Source of the DNA: an uncultured Acidobacteriota bacterium
GTDB taxonomy: Bacteria; Acidobacteriota; Thermoanaerobaculia; Gp7-AA8
Assembly: GCA_937870635.1 (NCBI GenBank)
Contig: CALMZP010000123.1
Location: 1 to 34,157 of the forward strand
Direction: 5' to 3'
DNA: 34,157 nucleotides
Made by a program: the position numbers and the translations under genes. The notes under the pieces were generated by a model that was not told the DNA's origin, ran no database searches, and worked only from the letters and a program-made list of their open reading frames with translations. Position 1 is the stretch's first letter. Every line of letters begins with the position of its first letter. Below, piece by piece: positions 2,996-17,721 of the stretch.

Positions 2996-3004
2996 CGCGA
3001 GCGG

Positions 3005-3010
3005 ATTGTA
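3005..3010 (-). promoter_or_regulatory. -10-like box TACAAT for the epimerase-tyrS unit
   Basis: TACAAT on the minus strand matches the TATAAT consensus at 5 of 6 positions and lies 9 bases before the ATG at 2995, so the transcript would start within a few bases of the start codon. The palindrome at 3017-3088 occupies the -35 region. Confidence 0.55.
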
Positions 3011-3016
3011 TTTGAC

Positions 3017-3088
3017 CCATTTTGGATTTTGGATTTTGGATTTTGGATTGAAGCAAATCCAAAATCCAAAATCCAAAATCCAAAATGG
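3017..3088. repeat. Heptamer-array hairpin H1 (TTTTGGA type)
   Basis: Perfect 33-bp inverted repeat (3017-3049 and 3056-3088) with a 6-bp loop. Each arm is about four and a half copies of a 7-bp unit, TTTTGGA on one arm and TCCAAAA on the other. It lies between divergent transcription units, and one end directly abuts the extended -10 box of the his leader. Sister copies are at 16330-16406 and 17654-17721. Confidence 0.95.
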
Positions 3089-3097
3089 TGCTACACT
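3089..3097 (+). promoter_or_regulatory. Extended -10 box of the his operon
   Basis: TGCTACACT: a TGN extension followed by TACACT. It begins one base after the H1 palindrome and ends 7 bases before the GTG of the leader peptide, putting the predicted transcription start at about 3104. The -35 position falls inside the palindrome arm and shows no consensus box. TGCTANNNT forms also precede cdd and rel. Confidence 0.55.
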
Positions 3098-3104
3098 CCG
3101 GTCC

Positions 3105-3161
3105 GTGTTGAGCACGAGCACGTTTTCCCGGCACCACCACCACCTCCACCATCCGGTGTAG
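3105..3161 (+). CDS. hisL: Histidine-rich leader peptide of the his operon
   Basis: Short frame from GTG 3105 (or TTG 3108) to TAG 3161, giving an 18-residue peptide ending [11 protein letters not shown]. Six of seven consecutive codons are His (CAC four times, CTC, CAC, CAT). A His-codon run in a short leader in front of his genes is the hallmark of ribosome-mediated attenuation known from enterobacterial his operons. The peptide would sense charged tRNA-His. It may be translated from a leaderless or near-leaderless RNA because the -10 box ends 7 bases before the GTG. No Shine-Dalgarno sequence is visible. The same frame can be read back to about 2958 through the palindrome, but that upstream part just translates repeat. 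Confidence 0.8.
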
Positions 3162-3274
3162 GGGTGCTCATCTTGTGTGCCCCGCCGAAAGGAAGGGGCG
3201 CGCCCAGCCAGCACAATCCGTAATCGCCTGAGCCAAACCTCTTCCACCTTCGCCGGGGAAGAGGTTTTCTGTTC
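3110..3274 (+). promoter_or_regulatory. his operon attenuator (alternative RNA hairpins)
   Basis: Pairing by eye gives the classic competing structures. (1) GAGCAC (3110-3115 or 3116-3121) pairs with GTGCTC (3164-3169), closing over the His codons as a possible pause hairpin. (2) GCCCC (3179-3183) pairs with GGGGC (3195-3199), with TTGTGT (3173-3178) and GCACAA (3211-3216) as an outer stem. (3) GGAAGGGG (3191-3198) can instead pair with CCTCTTCC (3238-3245), with one G-U wobble, as antiterminator. (4) The terminator stem at 3235-3267 uses that same CCTCTTCC. A ribosome stalled at the His codons would block structure 1 and favour 3. This is inference from base pairing only. Confidence 0.7.
3235..3274 (+). 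terminator. Intrinsic terminator of the his attenuator
   Basis: Perfect 11-bp stem (3235-3245 and 3257-3267) with an 11-base loop, followed by a U-rich run TTTTCTGTT. The 3' arm contains the only Shine-Dalgarno-like sequence for hisZ (GAAGAGG), and the hisZ ATG begins at 3275. Formation of the hairpin would therefore both end transcription and hide the hisZ ribosome site. Confidence 0.8.
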
Positions 3275-3916
3275 ATGGCGAGACTCAGATATCCGACGGG
3301 CGTCCGGCCCCTCCTCATCGAAGAAACGGCGCGGCGCCGCCGCGTCGAGACGCGCATCGTCTCCATCCTCGAACGCGAAGGGTTCGCCGAGGTGGTGGTG
3401 CCGATCATTGATTACGAGGAGCCGTATGTGTCGGCCGCGCACATCGATCGCAGGCAGACCTACCGGTTCGTCGACCGCGACGGCGACCTCGTCGCGATCC
3501 GCTCCGACTTCACGCCGATGGTGGCGCGTTCCATTGCGCCGGAGATCGGCCGCGTAGCGCTCCCGCTGCGCGTCTTCTACCGCGGCGACGTCGTCCGCCT
3601 CGACCCTCCCCGCCTCGGACGCCAGCGCGAGATGTTCCAGATCGGAGCCGAGATCGTCGGCGATGGCTCGCCGGCCGCGGATGAGGCTCTCCTGGCCGTC
3701 GCGACGGAAACCGTGCGCGCACTCGGCATCGAGCCGATGGTCGTCCGCGGCGAGTCGCGCGACGGCTACTACACCGGCTTCTGCTTTCACCTGTACGACT
3801 CGGCGTCGCGCGGCGTGCCGGTCGCCCGGGGCGGACGCTACGACTCTCTCTACGAACGCTTCGGCGGCGCCGCTCCGGCCGTCGGATTCACGCTCACGAT
3901 CGACGATCCGAGGTGA
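3275..3916 (+). CDS. hisZ: ATP phosphoribosyltransferase regulatory subunit, short HisZ
   Basis: 213-aa HisS-like paralogue that forms the ATP phosphoribosyltransferase complex with short-form HisG. The class II synthetase-like motifs are present: [20 protein letters not shown] and [13 protein letters not shown], then the [11 protein letters not shown] and GGRYDSL segments and the terminal AVGFTLTID. HisZ is usually about 320-400 residues. Here the segment between the ALGIEP helix and the YYTG motif is only about a dozen residues instead of roughly a hundred, so the middle of the domain is missing without a frame break. Nothing suggests a pseudogene: the frame is intact, and the next gene is a short HisG that needs a partner. 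The ATG follows GAAGAGG inside the attenuator stem. Its stop overlaps a GTG in the hisG frame. Confidence 0.85.
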
Positions 3917-3921
3917 CCTTC

Positions 3922-4536
3922 ATGCGCATCGCCATTCCCAAAGGACGACTGCAGGAGCCCGCGCTGGCGATGTTCGCCGCCGCCGGGCTGCCGGTGCCGT
4001 CGCCGGCCGAGCTAGCCACGCGGCGCCTCGTGTTCAACGGACGAGGAGTCGAGTGGATCTTCGTCAAGGACTGCGACGTGCCGGTTTACGTCGAGCACGG
4101 CGCGGCCGACGCCGGCATCGCCGGCCTCGACCAGCTGCTCGAGCATGAATCGACGGCGTCGCAGCCGGTGACGATGCCGTTCGGCGTGTGCCGGATGATG
4201 CTGATCGCCGCGCCCGACGAGCGTCCGCTGCGCAGCATCGCAACGAAGTATCCGCGGATCGCCCATCGCTATCTCGAGGAGCGGGGGCTGCGCGCGGACG
4301 TGGTAGCGCTGGGGGGATCGGTGGAGCTGGCGGCGGTGCTCGCGCTGACGACCCACGTCATCGACCTCGTCGAGACGGGAGAGACGGTGCGCATTCACAA
4401 CCTCGTGTTGCAGGACACCGTGGCGGAGATCGCGCCGCGGCTCATCGTCGGCAGGGACATCTGCAGGACCGCACCCGATCGCGTGCAGGAGCTCGTCGCG
4501 CGCGTGTCGGAAGCGGTGGAAGGGGTGATCGCATGA
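3922..4536 (+). CDS. hisG: ATP phosphoribosyltransferase, short form (HisG-S)
   Basis: 204-aa catalytic subunit for the first committed step: ATP plus PRPP gives phosphoribosyl-ATP. The N-terminus MRIAIPKGRLQEP and the later VELAAVL and ADAGIAGLDQLLE segments are typical. The protein stops at about 205 residues, lacking the C-terminal His-binding domain of long HisG, so feedback control must come from HisZ next door. ATG 3922 is chosen because GAGGTGA (3910-3916) lies 5 bases before it. GTG 3913, which overlaps the hisZ stop as GTGA, is an alternative that adds three residues. The gene ends with an ATGA overlap into hisD. Confidence 0.93.
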   Translation: MRIAIPKGRLQEPALAMFAAAGLPVPSPAELATRRLVFNGRGVEWIFVKDCDVPVYVEHGAADAGIAGLDQLLEHESTASQPVTMPFGVCRMMLIAAPDERPLRSIATKYPRIAHRYLEERGLRADVVALGGSVELAAVLALTTHVIDLVETGETVRIHNLVLQDTVAEIAPRLIVGRDICRTAPDRVQELVARVSEAVEGVIA

Positions 4537-5738
4537 ACAATTTTCTGGAGAAGCTGGAGCAGAGGCGCGCGGCGGCATCGGCGAATGCGTTTCGCGTGGC
4601 CGATGAGGTGATTGCGGGGGTGCGGGCGCATGGCGATGCGTTTGTTGCCGGGCAGATTGCGAAGTTTGATGGGGTGGAGCTTGCGGCGGAGGAGATTCTC
4701 CATACAGCCCACTCATCCGGCCTTCGGCCACCTTCTCCCCCTGTCTTCGCAGGGGGAGAAGGGCTCGTGGCGGCGATCCACCTTGCCATGGAACGCGTCG
4801 AGGCGTTTCACCTTCAGCAGATGCCTCGGGGTTACGTCTGGACCACGGCTGATACCACCATCGAGCATCGCGTGCGGCCCTTGCGGCGCGTCGGGATCTA
4901 CGTTCCGGGCGGGCGTGCGGTGTATCTCTCGACGCTGATCATGTGCGCGGTGCCGGCGCGGATCGCCGGCGTGCGGGAGATCGTCGTGGCGACGACGCCG
5001 AAAGCGGCCGCAAGACCCGAGTTCCAGTACGCCTGCTCCCTCCTCGGCGTGAACGAGATCTATCGCGCCGGCGGCGCGGCCGGCGTCGCGGCCCTGGCGC
5101 TGGGAACGGCGACGCTGCGCCGCGTCGACAAGATCGTCGGCCCCGGCAACTCGTACGTGACCGCGGCCAAGGCGCGGCTCATCGGCGAGGTCGGCATCGA
5201 CATGACCGCAGGACCGACGGAGCTGGTAGTGATCGCGGACGAGACGGGCGACGCCGATCTCATCGCCGCGGATCTCCTCGCGCAGGCCGAGCACGGGCCG
5301 GACAGCGCCGTCATCCTCCTCACTCCCAGTAAGAGTCTGGCGCGCCGCGTCGAGCAGCTGGCACCGGGCGCGTTCGTGTTCGTGGCCAGCATCGACGATG
5401 CGATCGCCTTCACGAATCGCATCGCGCCGGAACATCTCTCCATTCAGACGCGCGATCCTGACGCCGTCGCCGCGCGCACGGAGAATTGCGGGGCGATCTA
5501 CATCGGCCCCAGCTCGGCCCCCGCTGCCGGCGATTACGTCCTCGGATCCAATCACGTGCTGCCCACCGCGGGGACCGCGCGCTTCTTCTCCCCCCTCGGC
5601 GTCTACGACTTCGTGAAGCGGACGAACATCGTCACCACCGGCGCGCAGGATGCGGAAGCGATTGCGCCACTGGTCCGTGCGCTCGCGGAATTCGAAGGGC
5701 TGCCCGCGCACGGGCGGTCAGCGATGGTGCGGTCATGA
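4533..5738 (+). CDS. hisD: Histidinol dehydrogenase with an in-frame repeat insertion
   Basis: 401-aa zinc enzyme that oxidises L-histidinol to L-histidine in two NAD-dependent steps, the last of the pathway. Seen motifs: VGIYVPGG, KIVGPGNSYV, IDMTAGPTE, the zinc-binding QAEHGPDS, the catalytic APEHLSI pair, AGDYVLGSNHVLPT, and a late LPAHGRS His. Residues about 57-77 have no counterpart in the family as I know it. They are encoded by a perfect hairpin element (4731-4762 plus flank) that sits between the AAEEI helix and the VAAIHLAMERVEAFH helix. Despite this the length is below the usual 430 or so, because the region after RRVEQL is short. ATGA overlaps join it to hisG and hisC. Confidence 0.95.
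   Translation: MNNFLEKLEQRRAAASANAFRVADEVIAGVRAHGDAFVAGQIAKFDGVELAAEEILHTAHSSGLRPPSPPVFAGGEGLVAAIHLAMERVEAFHLQQMPRGYVWTTADTTIEHRVRPLRRVGIYVPGGRAVYLSTLIMCAVPARIAGVREIVVATTPKAAARPEFQYACSLLGVNEIYRAGGAAGVAALALGTATLRRVDKIVGPGNSYVTAAKARLIGEVGIDMTAGPTELVVIADETGDADLIAADLLAQAEHGPDSAVILLTPSKSLARRVEQLAPGAFVFVASIDDAIAFTNRIAPEHLSIQTRDPDAVAARTENCGAIYIGPSSAPAAGDYVLGSNHVLPTAGTARFFSPLGVYDFVKRTNIVTTGAQDAEAIAPLVRALAEFEGLPAHGRSAMVRS
4708..4763. repeat. Palindromic element inside hisD
   Basis: Perfect 13-bp stem (4731-4743 and 4750-4762) with a 6-base loop TCTTCG, preceded by CATCCGGCCTTCGGCC, itself a small hairpin. The sequence differs in style from the surrounding codons and translates as a Pro/Gly-rich loop. 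It resembles dispersed intergenic repeats of the CCTTCTCCCC type that I recall from other bacterial genomes; that resemblance is from memory. Confidence 0.75.
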
Positions 5739-6748
5739 GCCGCGCCGCAATTGCCGCGATGACGGCGTACACGCTCGAGCTCCGCGACGCTGCGATCAAG
5801 CTCAATCAGAACGAGGGGCCCGACGATCTGCCGCGCGCGTTCAAGGAGGAGCTGTTCCGGCGCGTCGTCAATCGCTCCTGGAACCGCTATCCCGATTTCG
5901 AACTGACGGAGCTGCGGTCGGCGCTTGCACGCGCGAACGGGCTGGAGCCCGATCAGATCCTCGCCGGCAACGGATCGAACGAGCTCCTCGCGGCGACCGT
6001 GGCGACATTCGTCGGGCCGGGAACGCCGGTCGTCATTCCGCGACCTACCTTCGCTCTTTACGAGAAGCTCGTGGCCATTGCGGGAGGAACGGTCGTACCG
6101 GTCGACATCGATCCGGCCACCGGCGTTCTGCCCCTCGATGCGATCGTCCGCGCGGCAGGGCCTGCGTCCGTCGTCATCGTCTGCTCGCCGAACAATCCGA
6201 CGGGCGGCGTGCTGCCGCCGGACGGAGTCGACGAACTGCTGGCCACGGGGGCGACGGTGCTGCTGGATCGGGCCTATGGCGAGTTCGATGGAGGGCGGGC
6301 GACCTCGCCCGCCGGCGCGGGCGGGATCGCCCGCGCTCCACTGATCACGTTCTCAACTTTCTCCAAGGCGTGGGGGCTGGCCGGGCTTCGCGTCGGATGG
6401 CTCGCTTCTGCCGCCGAGACCTGCCGCGAGATCCGCAAGGTCAAGCTTCCCTACAGCCTGAACATCGTCAGCGAGGCGGCGGCGATTCTCGCGCTCGAGA
6501 ATCCATGGCTGCGCGATCGGAACGTGGAACGGGTCAGGAAGGAACGCGCACGCGTGATGGATGCATTGGGCGATGCCGCCTTCCCGAGTCAGGCCAACTT
6601 CATCCTCTTCCGCGCGCGCGCGGGCCTTTTCGACGACCTGCTGGCCCGAGGGATCCTCGTCCGTGCGTACGCGGGATTCCTGCGCGTGTCGATCGGCCTG
6701 CCCGAGGAGAACGACGCATTCCTCGCCGCCATGAAGGAGCTCGCATGA
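5735..6748 (+). CDS. hisC: Histidinol-phosphate aminotransferase with a REP-like insertion
   Basis: 337-aa fold-type I PLP enzyme converting imidazole acetol phosphate and glutamate to histidinol phosphate. Motifs: KLNQNEGP N-terminus, GNGSNELL, CSPNNPTGG, LDRAYGEF, and the PLP lysine K211 in TFSKAWGLAGLRVG, followed by a C-terminal SQANFILF segment. Residues 186-203 (Gly, Arg, Ala, Pro-rich, between YGEFD and the TFSK strand) are encoded by a 52-bp REP-like palindrome (6289-6340). Homologues carry a short loop there. The catalytic core is intact, so the enzyme should work. The start at 5735 overlaps the hisD stop as ATGA, and the end overlaps hisB the same way. Confidence 0.93.
   Translation: MSRAAIAAMTAYTLELRDAAIKLNQNEGPDDLPRAFKEELFRRVVNRSWNRYPDFELTELRSALARANGLEPDQILAGNGSNELLAATVATFVGPGTPVVIPRPTFALYEKLVAIAGGTVVPVDIDPATGVLPLDAIVRAAGPASVVIVCSPNNPTGGVLPPDGVDELLATGATVLLDRAYGEFDGGRATSPAGAGGIARAPLITFSTFSKAWGLAGLRVGWLASAAETCREIRKVKLPYSLNIVSEAAAILALENPWLRDRNVERVRKERARVMDALGDAAFPSQANFILFRARAGLFDDLLARGILVRAYAGFLRVSIGLPEENDAFLAAMKELA
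6289..6340. repeat. REP-like palindromic element inside hisC
   Basis: Two REP-like arms joined head to head without the 18-bp spacer: TGGAG at 6289-6293 pairs with CTCCA at 6336-6340 and each arm holds its own GC-rich hairpin. The arm order is inverted relative to copies A and B. It is read through in frame with no stop codon. Confidence 0.8.
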
Positions 6749-7335
6749 ACCGCACTGCCACCATCACACGCACGACCAAGGAGACATCCGTCGCCGTGAC
6801 GGTCGATCTCGACGGCACCGGCACCTCACGCATCCAGACGCCGATCGGCTTTCTCTCGCACATGCTCGATGCCATCGCGCGGCACAGCCGCGTCGATCTC
6901 GCCATCGTGGCCGCGGGCGACACCGACATCGACTACCACCACACCGTCGAAGACACCGGCCTCGTCCTCGGCGAAGCCTTCGCCGCTGCCCTGGGCGACA
7001 AGCGCGGCATCCGCCGGTTCGGATCGGCGTACGTTCCGCTCGACGAATCGCTGGCGCGTGTAGTCGTCGACTTTTCCGGCCGTCCCTTCCTCGTGTTCGA
7101 GGCGCCAATCGACCGGGAGATGCTCCTCATCCACAAGGATTTTCCGTTCGCACTCGTGGAGGAGTTCTTCAAGTCGTTCGCGAACAAGTGTGCCTGCAAC
7201 ATCCACGTCGACCTGATCCGCGGCCGCAACGGCCACCATGCGGCCGAGGCGATTTTCAAGGCGTTCGCGATCGCGGTGCGTGAGGCGAAGAGCGTGGTAA
7301 CGAGCGACATCCCCAGCACGAAGGGGGTGTTGTGA
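6745..7335 (+). CDS. hisB: Imidazoleglycerol-phosphate dehydratase
   Basis: 196-aa monofunctional dehydratase that converts imidazole glycerol phosphate to imidazole acetol phosphate. Metal-binding repeats are visible as HMLDAIARH and DYHHTVED in the first half, and FFKSFANKCACNIH and GRNGHHAAEAIFKAFA in the second. The N-terminus (ITRTTKETSV) and the end ([10 protein letters not shown]) match the family and its usual length. There is no histidinol-phosphatase domain as in enterobacterial HisB, and no separate phosphatase gene is in this window. It overlaps hisC (ATGA) and hisH (GTGA). Confidence 0.96.
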   Translation: MNRTATITRTTKETSVAVTVDLDGTGTSRIQTPIGFLSHMLDAIARHSRVDLAIVAAGDTDIDYHHTVEDTGLVLGEAFAAALGDKRGIRRFGSAYVPLDESLARVVVDFSGRPFLVFEAPIDREMLLIHKDFPFALVEEFFKSFANKCACNIHVDLIRGRNGHHAAEAIFKAFAIAVREAKSVVTSDIPSTKGVL

Positions 7336-7946
7336 AAGGCCATGACGTGGTTCGTCCAGTCACCCTCATCGATTCGCCCGTTGCGAACGTGGCGAACATC
7401 GCGCGGGTCCTGCGCGCCGCCGGAGCGTCGCTGGAAGTCACCAGCGACCCGCTCGCCGTTCTGCGCTCGAAGAAGGTCGTCCTTCCCGGCGTCGGCAGCT
7501 TTGTCGCCGCGATGGAGTGGCTGCGCGCGACGCGCATCGATGACGCTCTTCGGGAGATCGCTCTGCGCCGCACTCCCCTTCTCGGCATCTGCGTCGGTCA
7601 TCAGCTGCTCTTCGATTCTTCCGACGAGATGACGACCACCGCCGGCCTCGGGTTGATCCGCGGCCGCGTCTCCAGGCTGGCAACTTCGCTCCCCGTGCCG
7701 CAGATCGGCTGGAACCGCGTGCGCTTCAACGGCGCCGCGCTTTTCGACGGAATCGAGCCGGACACGCCGTTCTACTTCGTGAATTCGTTCGTCGCCGCCG
7801 ATGTCCCCGACGAGATCGCGCGCGCCGACTACGGCAGAGCCTTTACCGCGGCGGTCCAGAAGAACAACGTCTACGGCGTCCAGTTCCATCCCGAGAAGTC
7901 GTCGGGGCCGGGACTGCGCGTCCTGAGGAACTTCGTGTGGATGTGA
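7332..7946 (+). CDS. hisH: Imidazole glycerol phosphate synthase glutaminase subunit
   Basis: 204-aa class I glutamine amidotransferase. It releases ammonia from glutamine for the cyclase HisF. The triad is visible: nucleophile C87 in GICVGHQ, and H186 and E188 in QFHPEKS. The oxyanion-strand motif is PGVGSF. The start is GTG 7332, which overlaps the hisB stop as GTGA; no ATG fits the conserved N-terminus [14 protein letters not shown]. Its cyclase partner is the C-terminal half of the next gene, which it overlaps by 10 bases, so the two IGP synthase subunits are made together. Confidence 0.94.
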
Positions 7947-9385
7947 TCCCGTCGCTCGACCTGCTCGATGGCGCCGTGGTGCGGCTGCGCCGCGGCGACT
8001 TTGCCGATCGCACCGTTTACGGCGAGCCCGCGGCGGTGCTCGACATGCTCGACGTTCCCCGCGGCTCGCGCATTCACATCGTCGATCTCGCCGGGTCGCG
8101 CGACGGAAAGCCGGTCGCACTCGATGTCGTTCGCCGCCTCTCATCACGCGGCCTGCGCGTGCAGGCCGGCGGCGGCGTGCGCACCGAGGCGGACGTCGCG
8201 CTCTGGCTCGACGCGGGAGCCGAGAGAGTCGTCGTGGGAACGGTTGCCGCGGAGAACCCCGAGCTCCTGCGGCGCTTCCCGTCCGACCGCATCATCCCTG
8301 CGCTCGACATCCTGGACGGCGGGATTCGGGTCGCGGGCTGGACTCAATCGGCCTCGCGGTCTCTCACCGAGGTGCTTCGGCTCGTCGAATCGACGGGTGC
8401 CACGGAGATTCTCGTCACCGACATCTCCCGCGACGGAGTCCTGGGCGGACCGTCCTTCGCGCTCTATCGCCAGCTCGCCGCCCTGACGCCCCTGCGCATC
8501 ATCGCCTCGGGCGGCGTCACCACCCGCGGCGACATCGTCTCCCTCGCCCGCCTGGGCAACGTCAGCGGGTGCGTGGTCGGACGCGCGTTGCTCGATCGCC
8601 GGATCTCGCTGGACGAGGCGCGAGCGCGCGCGGCGTCGCCGCGAGCGATTCCGCCGCGGATCATCCCGTGCCTCGACGTGCGGGACGGTCGCGTCGTCAA
8701 AGGCGTGAACTTCGAAGGGATCCGCGACGCGGGCGATCCCGTCGAATGCGCGATCCGTTACGAAGAAGAAGGGGCGGATGAGATCGCGGTGCTGGACATC
8801 TCCGCGACGGACCGCGGGCACGCCACAGCGCTCGAGACAGTGCGCGGCATCGCTGAATCGATCTACATCCCGCTGACCGTCGGCGGCGGCGTCCGCACGA
8901 TCGACGACTTCCGCGCGCTGCTCCGTGCCGGCGCCGATCGCGTGGCCATCAACACCGCGGCGGTCCGGCGCCCGGAGCTCATCGCCGAATGCGCGAACGA
9001 ATTCGGCGTGCAGGCGGTGGTCGTTTCATGTGACGCCCGTGGCCGGACGGTCATGATCCGCGGCGGTAAGGACCCGGCCGGCCTCGATGCGGTCGAGTGG
9101 TGCCGCCGGGCCGAAGAGCTGGGAGCGGGAGAGATCCTGCTGACGTCCGTCGATCGGGACGGCACGCACTTCGGTTTCGACATCGAGCTTCTTCGCGCAG
9201 TCACCGGCGCGGTACGGATCAACGTCATCGCGTCGGGTGGAGCCGGAGAGCCGGCGCATTTTGCCGAGGCGATCGAGAGCGGCGGAGCGACCGCGGCGCT
9301 GGCGGCGTCACTCTTTCACGATCGCAAGCTGACGATCGGCGCGGTCAAACAATATCTGGCGAACGAGAGGATTCCTGTCCGATGA
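7937..9385 (+). CDS. hisAF: HisA-HisF fusion: ProFAR isomerase plus IGP synthase cyclase
   Basis: 482 residues in one uninterrupted frame. Residues 1 to about 230 are HisA ([54 protein letters not shown]), which isomerises ProFAR to PRFAR. Residues about 240-482 are HisF ([63 protein letters not shown]), which makes IGP and AICAR with HisH. Both catalytic Asp pairs are present (D in SLDLLDG and VTDIS; D in CLDVRDG and TSVDRD). The linker, about ten residues ([11 protein letters not shown]), has no Met near it. Start GTG 7937 has AGGA 7 bases upstream and overlaps hisH by 10 bases; GTG 7943 is an alternative with a GTGA overlap. Both halves are complete (beta-alpha)8 barrels, so the chain is a double barrel. 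Confidence 0.93.
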
Positions 9386-16329: not shown

Positions 16330-16406
16330 GATTTTGGATTTTGGATTTTGGATTTTAGATTGAACCAAATCTAAAATCTAAAATCCAAAATCCAAAATCC
16401 AAAATC
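16330..16406. repeat. Heptamer-array hairpin H2 (TTTTGGA type with matched variants)
   Basis: Left arm 16330-16361, right arm 16368-16406, 6-bp loop. Outer units are TTTTGGA as in H1 and H3, while the units next to the loop are TTTTAGA on the left and TCTAAAA (twice) on the right. The same substitution thus appears on both arms. It sits just past the stop of the phosphoesterase gene, upstream of the FecR-domain gene. Confidence 0.93.
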
Positions 16407-17653: not shown

Positions 17654-17721
17654 ATTTTGGATTTTGGATTTTGGATTTTGGATTGATCTGAATCCAAAAT
17701 CCAAAATCCAAAATCCAAAAT
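17654..17721. repeat. Heptamer-array hairpin H3 (TTTTGGA type)
   Basis: Perfect 31-bp inverted repeat (17654-17684 and 17691-17721) with a 6-base loop GATCTG. It occupies nearly the whole accC-aroK gap, starting one base before the aroK ATG and ending 6 bases before the accC stop. The loop sequence differs from those of H1 and H2, while the arms are the same type. Confidence 0.95.

Follow-up and report, generated by a model that had tools for sequence, protein, structure and literature searches.

What does a run of histidine codons do directly upstream of hisZ in an acidobacterium? The window (the whole stretch of DNA analysed here, 34,157 nucleotides of contig CALMZP010000123.1) carries a short His-rich reading frame at this place, followed by RNA segments that can pair in two alternative ways, and the operon downstream of it, from hisZ to hisIE, belongs to the matching biosynthetic pathway. 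Judged from sequence, this soil acidobacterium probably senses a ribosome stuck on the His codons of a leader to turn on its his genes. A preliminary description had proposed a histidine attenuator upstream of hisZ; that is the best-supported reading, and all its coordinates agree with the sequence. From comparison with relatives and from folding predictions, we consider it very probable that the hisZGDCBH(AF)(IE) operon is under a ribosome-mediated transcription attenuator at 3089-3275, and that aroDE-trp and CM-DAHPS operons in the family are controlled by the same chassis fitted with Trp or Tyr codons. The leader region is made up as follows.

3089-3097, plus strand: probable promoter, extended -10 (TGC TACACT) without a TTGACA -35
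3105-3161, plus strand: His leader peptide ORF, alternative start at 3108, without a Shine-Dalgarno
3132-3152, plus strand: regulatory codons CAC CAC CAC CAC CTC CAC CAT, a His run kept in 10 family genomes
3143-3162, plus strand: segment A (3143-3150), predicted by folding to pair with 3155-3162 as a protector hairpin if the leader is untranslated
3161-3167, plus strand: segment B, GGGGUGC, its first base being the last of the stop codon; partner C; would be hidden by a ribosome standing on that codon
3177-3183, plus strand: segment C, GUGCCCC; partner B (antitermination) or D (termination)
3191-3201, plus strand: segment D, GGAAGGGGCGC; partner C or E
3235-3248, plus strand: segment E, AAACCTCTTCCACC; partner D (antiterminator) or F (terminator)
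3255-3268, plus strand: segment F (itself 3255-3267) with the U tract, the 3' arm of the terminator

The leader begins at GTG 3105 or TTG 3108 and ends at TAG 3159-3161, so that the 18 codons first proposed hold for the GTG and become 17 with the TTG, which occupies the position homologous to the ATG of leaders in relatives. The HHHHLHH run was read correctly: its six His codons lie at 3132-3143 (four CAC) and, after a CTC, at 3147-3152 (CAC, CAT). The rival hairpins were also confirmed, with D:E at 3191-3198:3238-3245 (8 bp, one G-U), C:D at 3177-3183:3195-3201, and a terminator spanning 3235-3267 with arms 3235-3248 and 3255-3267 and U's at 3265-3268. The original structural model stands for these three pairings; it had missed segment B (3161-3167), without which ribosome position has no link to the choice between C:D and D:E. 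Folding of 3085-3290 gives -88.9 kcal/mol (z = -4.3), a stability equalled by none of 200 shuffles.

Segment pairings B:C with D:E and C:D with E:F are mutually exclusive, and the switch would operate as follows. RNA polymerase would start at the extended -10, and the leader ORF would be read leaderless or nearly so. With ample His-tRNA the ribosome would reach the UAG and cover B, C:D and E:F would form, and transcription would end at about 3268. With scarce His-tRNA it would stall on the CAC/CAU run, the free B would take C, D would be left free for E, and the his operon would be transcribed with no terminator in its way. If the leader were untranslated, its 3' part would pair with B, making termination the default. 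Formation of E:F would also block translation of hisZ in read-through RNA, since the likely ribosome site of hisZ lies in F. The stalling, the termination, the leaderless start and the response to histidine, like the origin by duplication taken up below, are parts of the explanation that we infer; the sequence itself, its conservation and covariation, the gene context and the specificity of the terminator pattern are observed.

With the ribosome edge set 13 nt beyond the first A-site base, stalls on His codons 1-5 keep B free, and a ribosome that has reached the stop codon covers it. Folding with ribosome positions had been offered in the preliminary description as a check. For the His-stalled state, folded before F is made, B:C plus D:E is predicted in 8 of 10 His members, and an A:B of about 6-7 pairs appears in the no-ribosome state of 9 of 10 family members. 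The window and L005 show weaker predicted antitermination in stalled states; in the window RNA C:D wins over B:C plus D:E for most stall positions, and only a stall at the fifth His codon clearly favours antitermination. By these predictions the window copy is one of the weakest switches of the set. Separation of states is imperfect, in that D:E rather than C:D is predicted for the stop-codon state before F in several relatives. At equilibrium with F included the terminator nearly always wins, so the decision would have to be kinetic, made during transcription.

The genes downstream, neighbours among which overlap by a few bases, are the following.

3275-3916, plus strand: hisZ, short form, 213 aa, start ATG 3275, matching the Pfam profile at 1-148 and 261-306 only
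3913-4536, plus strand: hisG (short form)
4533-5738, plus strand: hisD
5735-6748, plus strand: hisC, named from sequence and position, not from a Pfam match of its own
6745-7335, plus strand: hisB (IGPD)
7332-7946, plus strand: hisH
7937-9385, plus strand: hisA-hisF fusion, a single frame of 482 residues
9382-9969, plus strand: hisI-hisE fusion (PRA-CH and PRA-PH), the final his gene of the run

Named relatives of the window HisZ are from Acidobacteriota MAGs of Thermoanaerobaculia/group 7. At 213 residues the protein compares with 255-318 in nine aligned relatives, and the middle of the profile (149-260) is absent from it. The hisA-hisF fusion is kept in family relatives and several other members of the class and is missing in others; the fusions of his genes listed in the part of PMC9413887 consulted do not include it.

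Loss of both the His run and the terminator from relatives that keep hisZ would speak against an attenuator; the comparison turned out in favour of one. Eleven genomes of this GTDB family yielded a hisZ, the window's own (G000) among them, and in 10 of these the leader and switch are present; the exception, G005 (L013), has hisZ with no leader immediately upstream of it. The ten leader peptides are 14-19 residues long with 5-7 His (examples in relatives are MNTDFAHTWHHHHHHVM, MKFTLAHRSHHHHHHVM and MSTNFVQQHHHHHI) and invariably stop at TAG, whose final base is the first base of B; all ten share GGGG[T/A]G at the stop, a GCGCCCC/GGGGCGC stem and the terminator. GC-rich sequence produces many spurious frames, and one might suppose a plain intrinsic terminator that happens to follow an unrelated His-rich frame, but the probability of this is negligible, since conservation in the family genomes excludes a chance origin of the window element. 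The family alignment refutes it: leader codons are kept, or change to Trp or Tyr along with the pathway downstream, and B:C and D:E are conserved. When 873 kb of related loci were scanned for leaders, 27 matches were sense (22 convincing on inspection) and 3 antisense, the latter unconvincing. The large plus-strand frames upstream of the element are antisense to a divergent gene, which also argues against chance, and the terminator would therefore act on transcripts begun at the leader.

The likely ribosome site of hisZ is AGAGG at 3260-3264, which lies within F and, in the window, 10 nt upstream of the hisZ start codon; a site of this type lies inside F in most relatives as well. Such an arrangement could serve translational attenuation alone, with leader translation setting whether E:F masks the ribosome site and no real termination taking place. 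This is quite improbable, as a U run follows F throughout and as L099 (from the same genome as L023), in which the hisZ start lies further downstream and has its own ribosome site beyond the terminator, still keeps leader and switch. The combined control of termination and translation proposed at the outset thus fits the window and most relatives and fails for L099, which leaves termination of transcription as the feature that all share, with translational control as an option.

Translation of the leader itself is probably leaderless or near-leaderless, to judge from the arrangement of its promoter: start codons lie 6-12 nt past the -10 in related leaders (7 nt for GTG and 10 nt for TTG in the window), and no Shine-Dalgarno-like site is found at the leader start in any of the 30 elements of the scaffold described below. 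A scan located a TTGAC-type -35, 17-18 nt upstream of a TAnnnT -10, in 24 of the 30, and inspection added two (L104, L110). The four without a -35 match (L094, L100, L108, L113), the window's among them, are the only elements in which TGC precedes the -10. Arrays made up of 7-base units, often arranged as inverted pairs that face each other (ATTTTGG... / ...AATCCAA), occur at 3019-3086, 16330-16406, 17654-17721 and other sites of the window, the first of them in the expected position of the -35. The same repeat takes up the -35 position of L113, the Tyr attenuator of the same genome, and both elements have an extended -10; other genomes have different 7-mers near their leaders. Strong low-threshold Rfam matches to microRNAs were traced to the heptamer repeat at 3017-3089 and dismissed.

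The His elements turn out to have close counterparts reading other codons. A covariance model (R1), built from the His elements alone and searched over 149 genomes of the class, matches 30 times at E <= 0.01, only within the family and in one genome of the same order: the 10 His elements and 20 leaders with Tyr or Trp codons. Tyr-codon leaders (e.g. MNHSALRYAYYYGYYS) precede chorismate mutase-DAHP synthase, and Trp-codon leaders (e.g. MNASLRLWWWPSSE) precede aroDE-trp (aroDE-trpE), so that leader codons match the pathway downstream in each type (His with his, Trp with aroDE-trp, Tyr with CM-DAHPS); Pfam names of the genes behind Tyr and Trp leaders were checked on examples. The window's own genome carries a Tyr leader, MSRALSFSRYYRYGT (element L113), and no Trp leader, its aroDE-trpE directly adjoining the preceding gene. 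No Tyr leader was seen among the chorismate mutase genes inspected outside the family.

The structure is held in common across the three types. In an alignment of all 30 elements (A6, fitted to the structure) 98.3% of cells pair, and changes on both sides of a pair affect 9 pairs and 26 cells versus 3.0 and 4.3 in shuffles, none of 500 of which scored as high. Covariation in this set is strong; alignment of related genomes to look for it had been suggested at the outset as a check. Composition shuffles of single duplexes are weak for GC-rich arms, and a swap test was used instead: across 47 elements, own B:C and own D:E pairing each exceed pairing with swapped partners (0 of 2000 permutations for each), although the swap and shuffle tests leave relatedness among elements in place. 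The exact terminator pattern of the scaffold, ACCTCTTC-N3-18-GAAGAGGTTTT, has 18 occurrences in 18 family genomes, a count that includes one attenuator counted on both strands, and all are at leader attenuators.

With one switch carrying His, Trp or Tyr codons for the matching pathways, it would appear that a single regulatory part has been copied and re-coded. Likeness might instead have been driven by the demands of an architecture in which D must pair with both C and E, the three types not being homologous; B, D and E do constrain one another, and the scaffold is only about 100 nt long, with a poorly resolved tree. We regard such convergence as unlikely, given that identity between types (0.60-0.64) is nearly that within types (0.63-0.67), that the His-only model recovers the Trp and Tyr members at genome-wide E values of 1e-7 to 1e-2 with no further matches in those genomes, and that the GCGCCCC/GGGGCGC part is replaced elsewhere in the class (by GTCCCGG) and is thus not forced by the mechanism.

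Elsewhere in Thermoanaerobaculia, leaders that combine Trp with His codons, such as GWWHGVHHHGR, GWWGFVHHHVE and AWWRGVHHHGNR, are seen among weak matches to a model R2 and in the leader scan. These sit upstream of aroDE, which is followed by hisZ and more his genes and then by trpE and trpG, as in L047. The same segment order can be drawn for them with other C:D sequences (GTCCCGG instead of the GCGCCCC/GGGGCGC part), and in the swap test, with relatedness left in, their own B:C and D:E pairings again come out ahead (0 of 2000 for each). Variants include L073, with His codons only, upstream of hisZ, and L138, with Trp codons, upstream of aroD; leader codon content follows operon content. R2 found no match outside the class at E <= 0.01 in a phylum sample of 396 genomes. 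The weak class matches L130, L135, L136 and L139 have no visible leader and were dismissed as chance.

One account of their descent is, in our judgement, about as likely as not. One chassis may have been duplicated within an acidobacterial lineage and re-coded from a dual Trp+His ancestor in front of a merged aroDE-his-trp operon; with the splitting of the operon, copies would have kept His or Trp codons only, and one would have gained Tyr codons in front of CM-DAHPS. The scaffold is too short for its tree to give the order of duplications. If this account is true, the RNA switch stayed fixed while swaps of leader codons changed the amino acid specificity.

It is usual to regard the attenuators of different amino acids as separate inventions. 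Here several stand on one scaffold, differing mainly in the codons read, with a codon mix that tracks the genes of the operon; this suggests an interchangeable sensor part, and the elements form a natural series in which to ask how attenuators originate and how their specificity shifts. What is unusual is that exchangeable codons sit on a shared chassis and that dual Trp+His leaders stand on merged operons. Leaders of the E. coli thr and ilv operons contain codons for several amino acids, one leader sensing more than one. The dual leaders resemble them in multi-amino-acid sensing and differ in that the pair is Trp and His, before a merged aroDE-his-trp operon. T-box riboswitches are used for his genes in Firmicutes; neither the T-box model nor any leader family of Rfam, the His leader family of enterobacterial type included, has a match at gathering score in the window, or in 3000-3320 with E values allowed to reach 10.

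Gammaproteobacteria are known to have attenuators with His leaders (PMC4046918). Like the his attenuator of Salmonella and E. coli (7 His codons, segments A-F), the present one combines a His codon run, A:B/C:D/E:F against B:C/D:E, and an intrinsic terminator upstream of the first his gene (PMC4046918). Unlike it, the element precedes hisZ as first gene, has B overlapping the stop codon and a ribosome site in terminator arm F, lacks a Shine-Dalgarno at a start codon placed 6-12 nt past the -10, and shares its scaffold with Trp and Tyr leaders. The early remark that few worked examples exist outside enterobacteria needs updating, in that the consulted parts of PMC2965389 and PMC9413887 describe predicted His leader attenuators for Bacillus cereus, Peptostreptococcaceae and Erysipelotrichales. 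Those likewise have a His-codon leader, terminator and antiterminator upstream of hisZ or his operons; they belong to another phylum, the comparison being by description and not by sequence, and the same parts of these accounts make no mention of Trp or Tyr paralogues on one scaffold. Actinobacterial attenuators, as far as the portions of PMC1262725 and PMC4833913 consulted describe them, are similar in regulating amino acid operons through leader peptides in bacteria other than enterobacteria and differ in not being known, from this comparison, to share one scaffold across amino acids. We found no earlier report of this attenuator in the open-access literature searched (the survey of Lopatovskaya et al. 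2010 may include acidobacterial cases, and we claim no priority). The element also adds a function in a phylum for which, in 2010, hardly any of the predicted attenuators had been given a role (PMC2965389).

Some Trp-leader aroDE-trp operons also hold histidine-related genes. A hisS-like gene (tRNA-synt_His match) lies inside those of G018 and G005 (L126:3916-8160, L142:563-4844), the one in L126 having an anticodon-binding domain in addition, and the operon of G018 contains a hisA-hisF fusion too.
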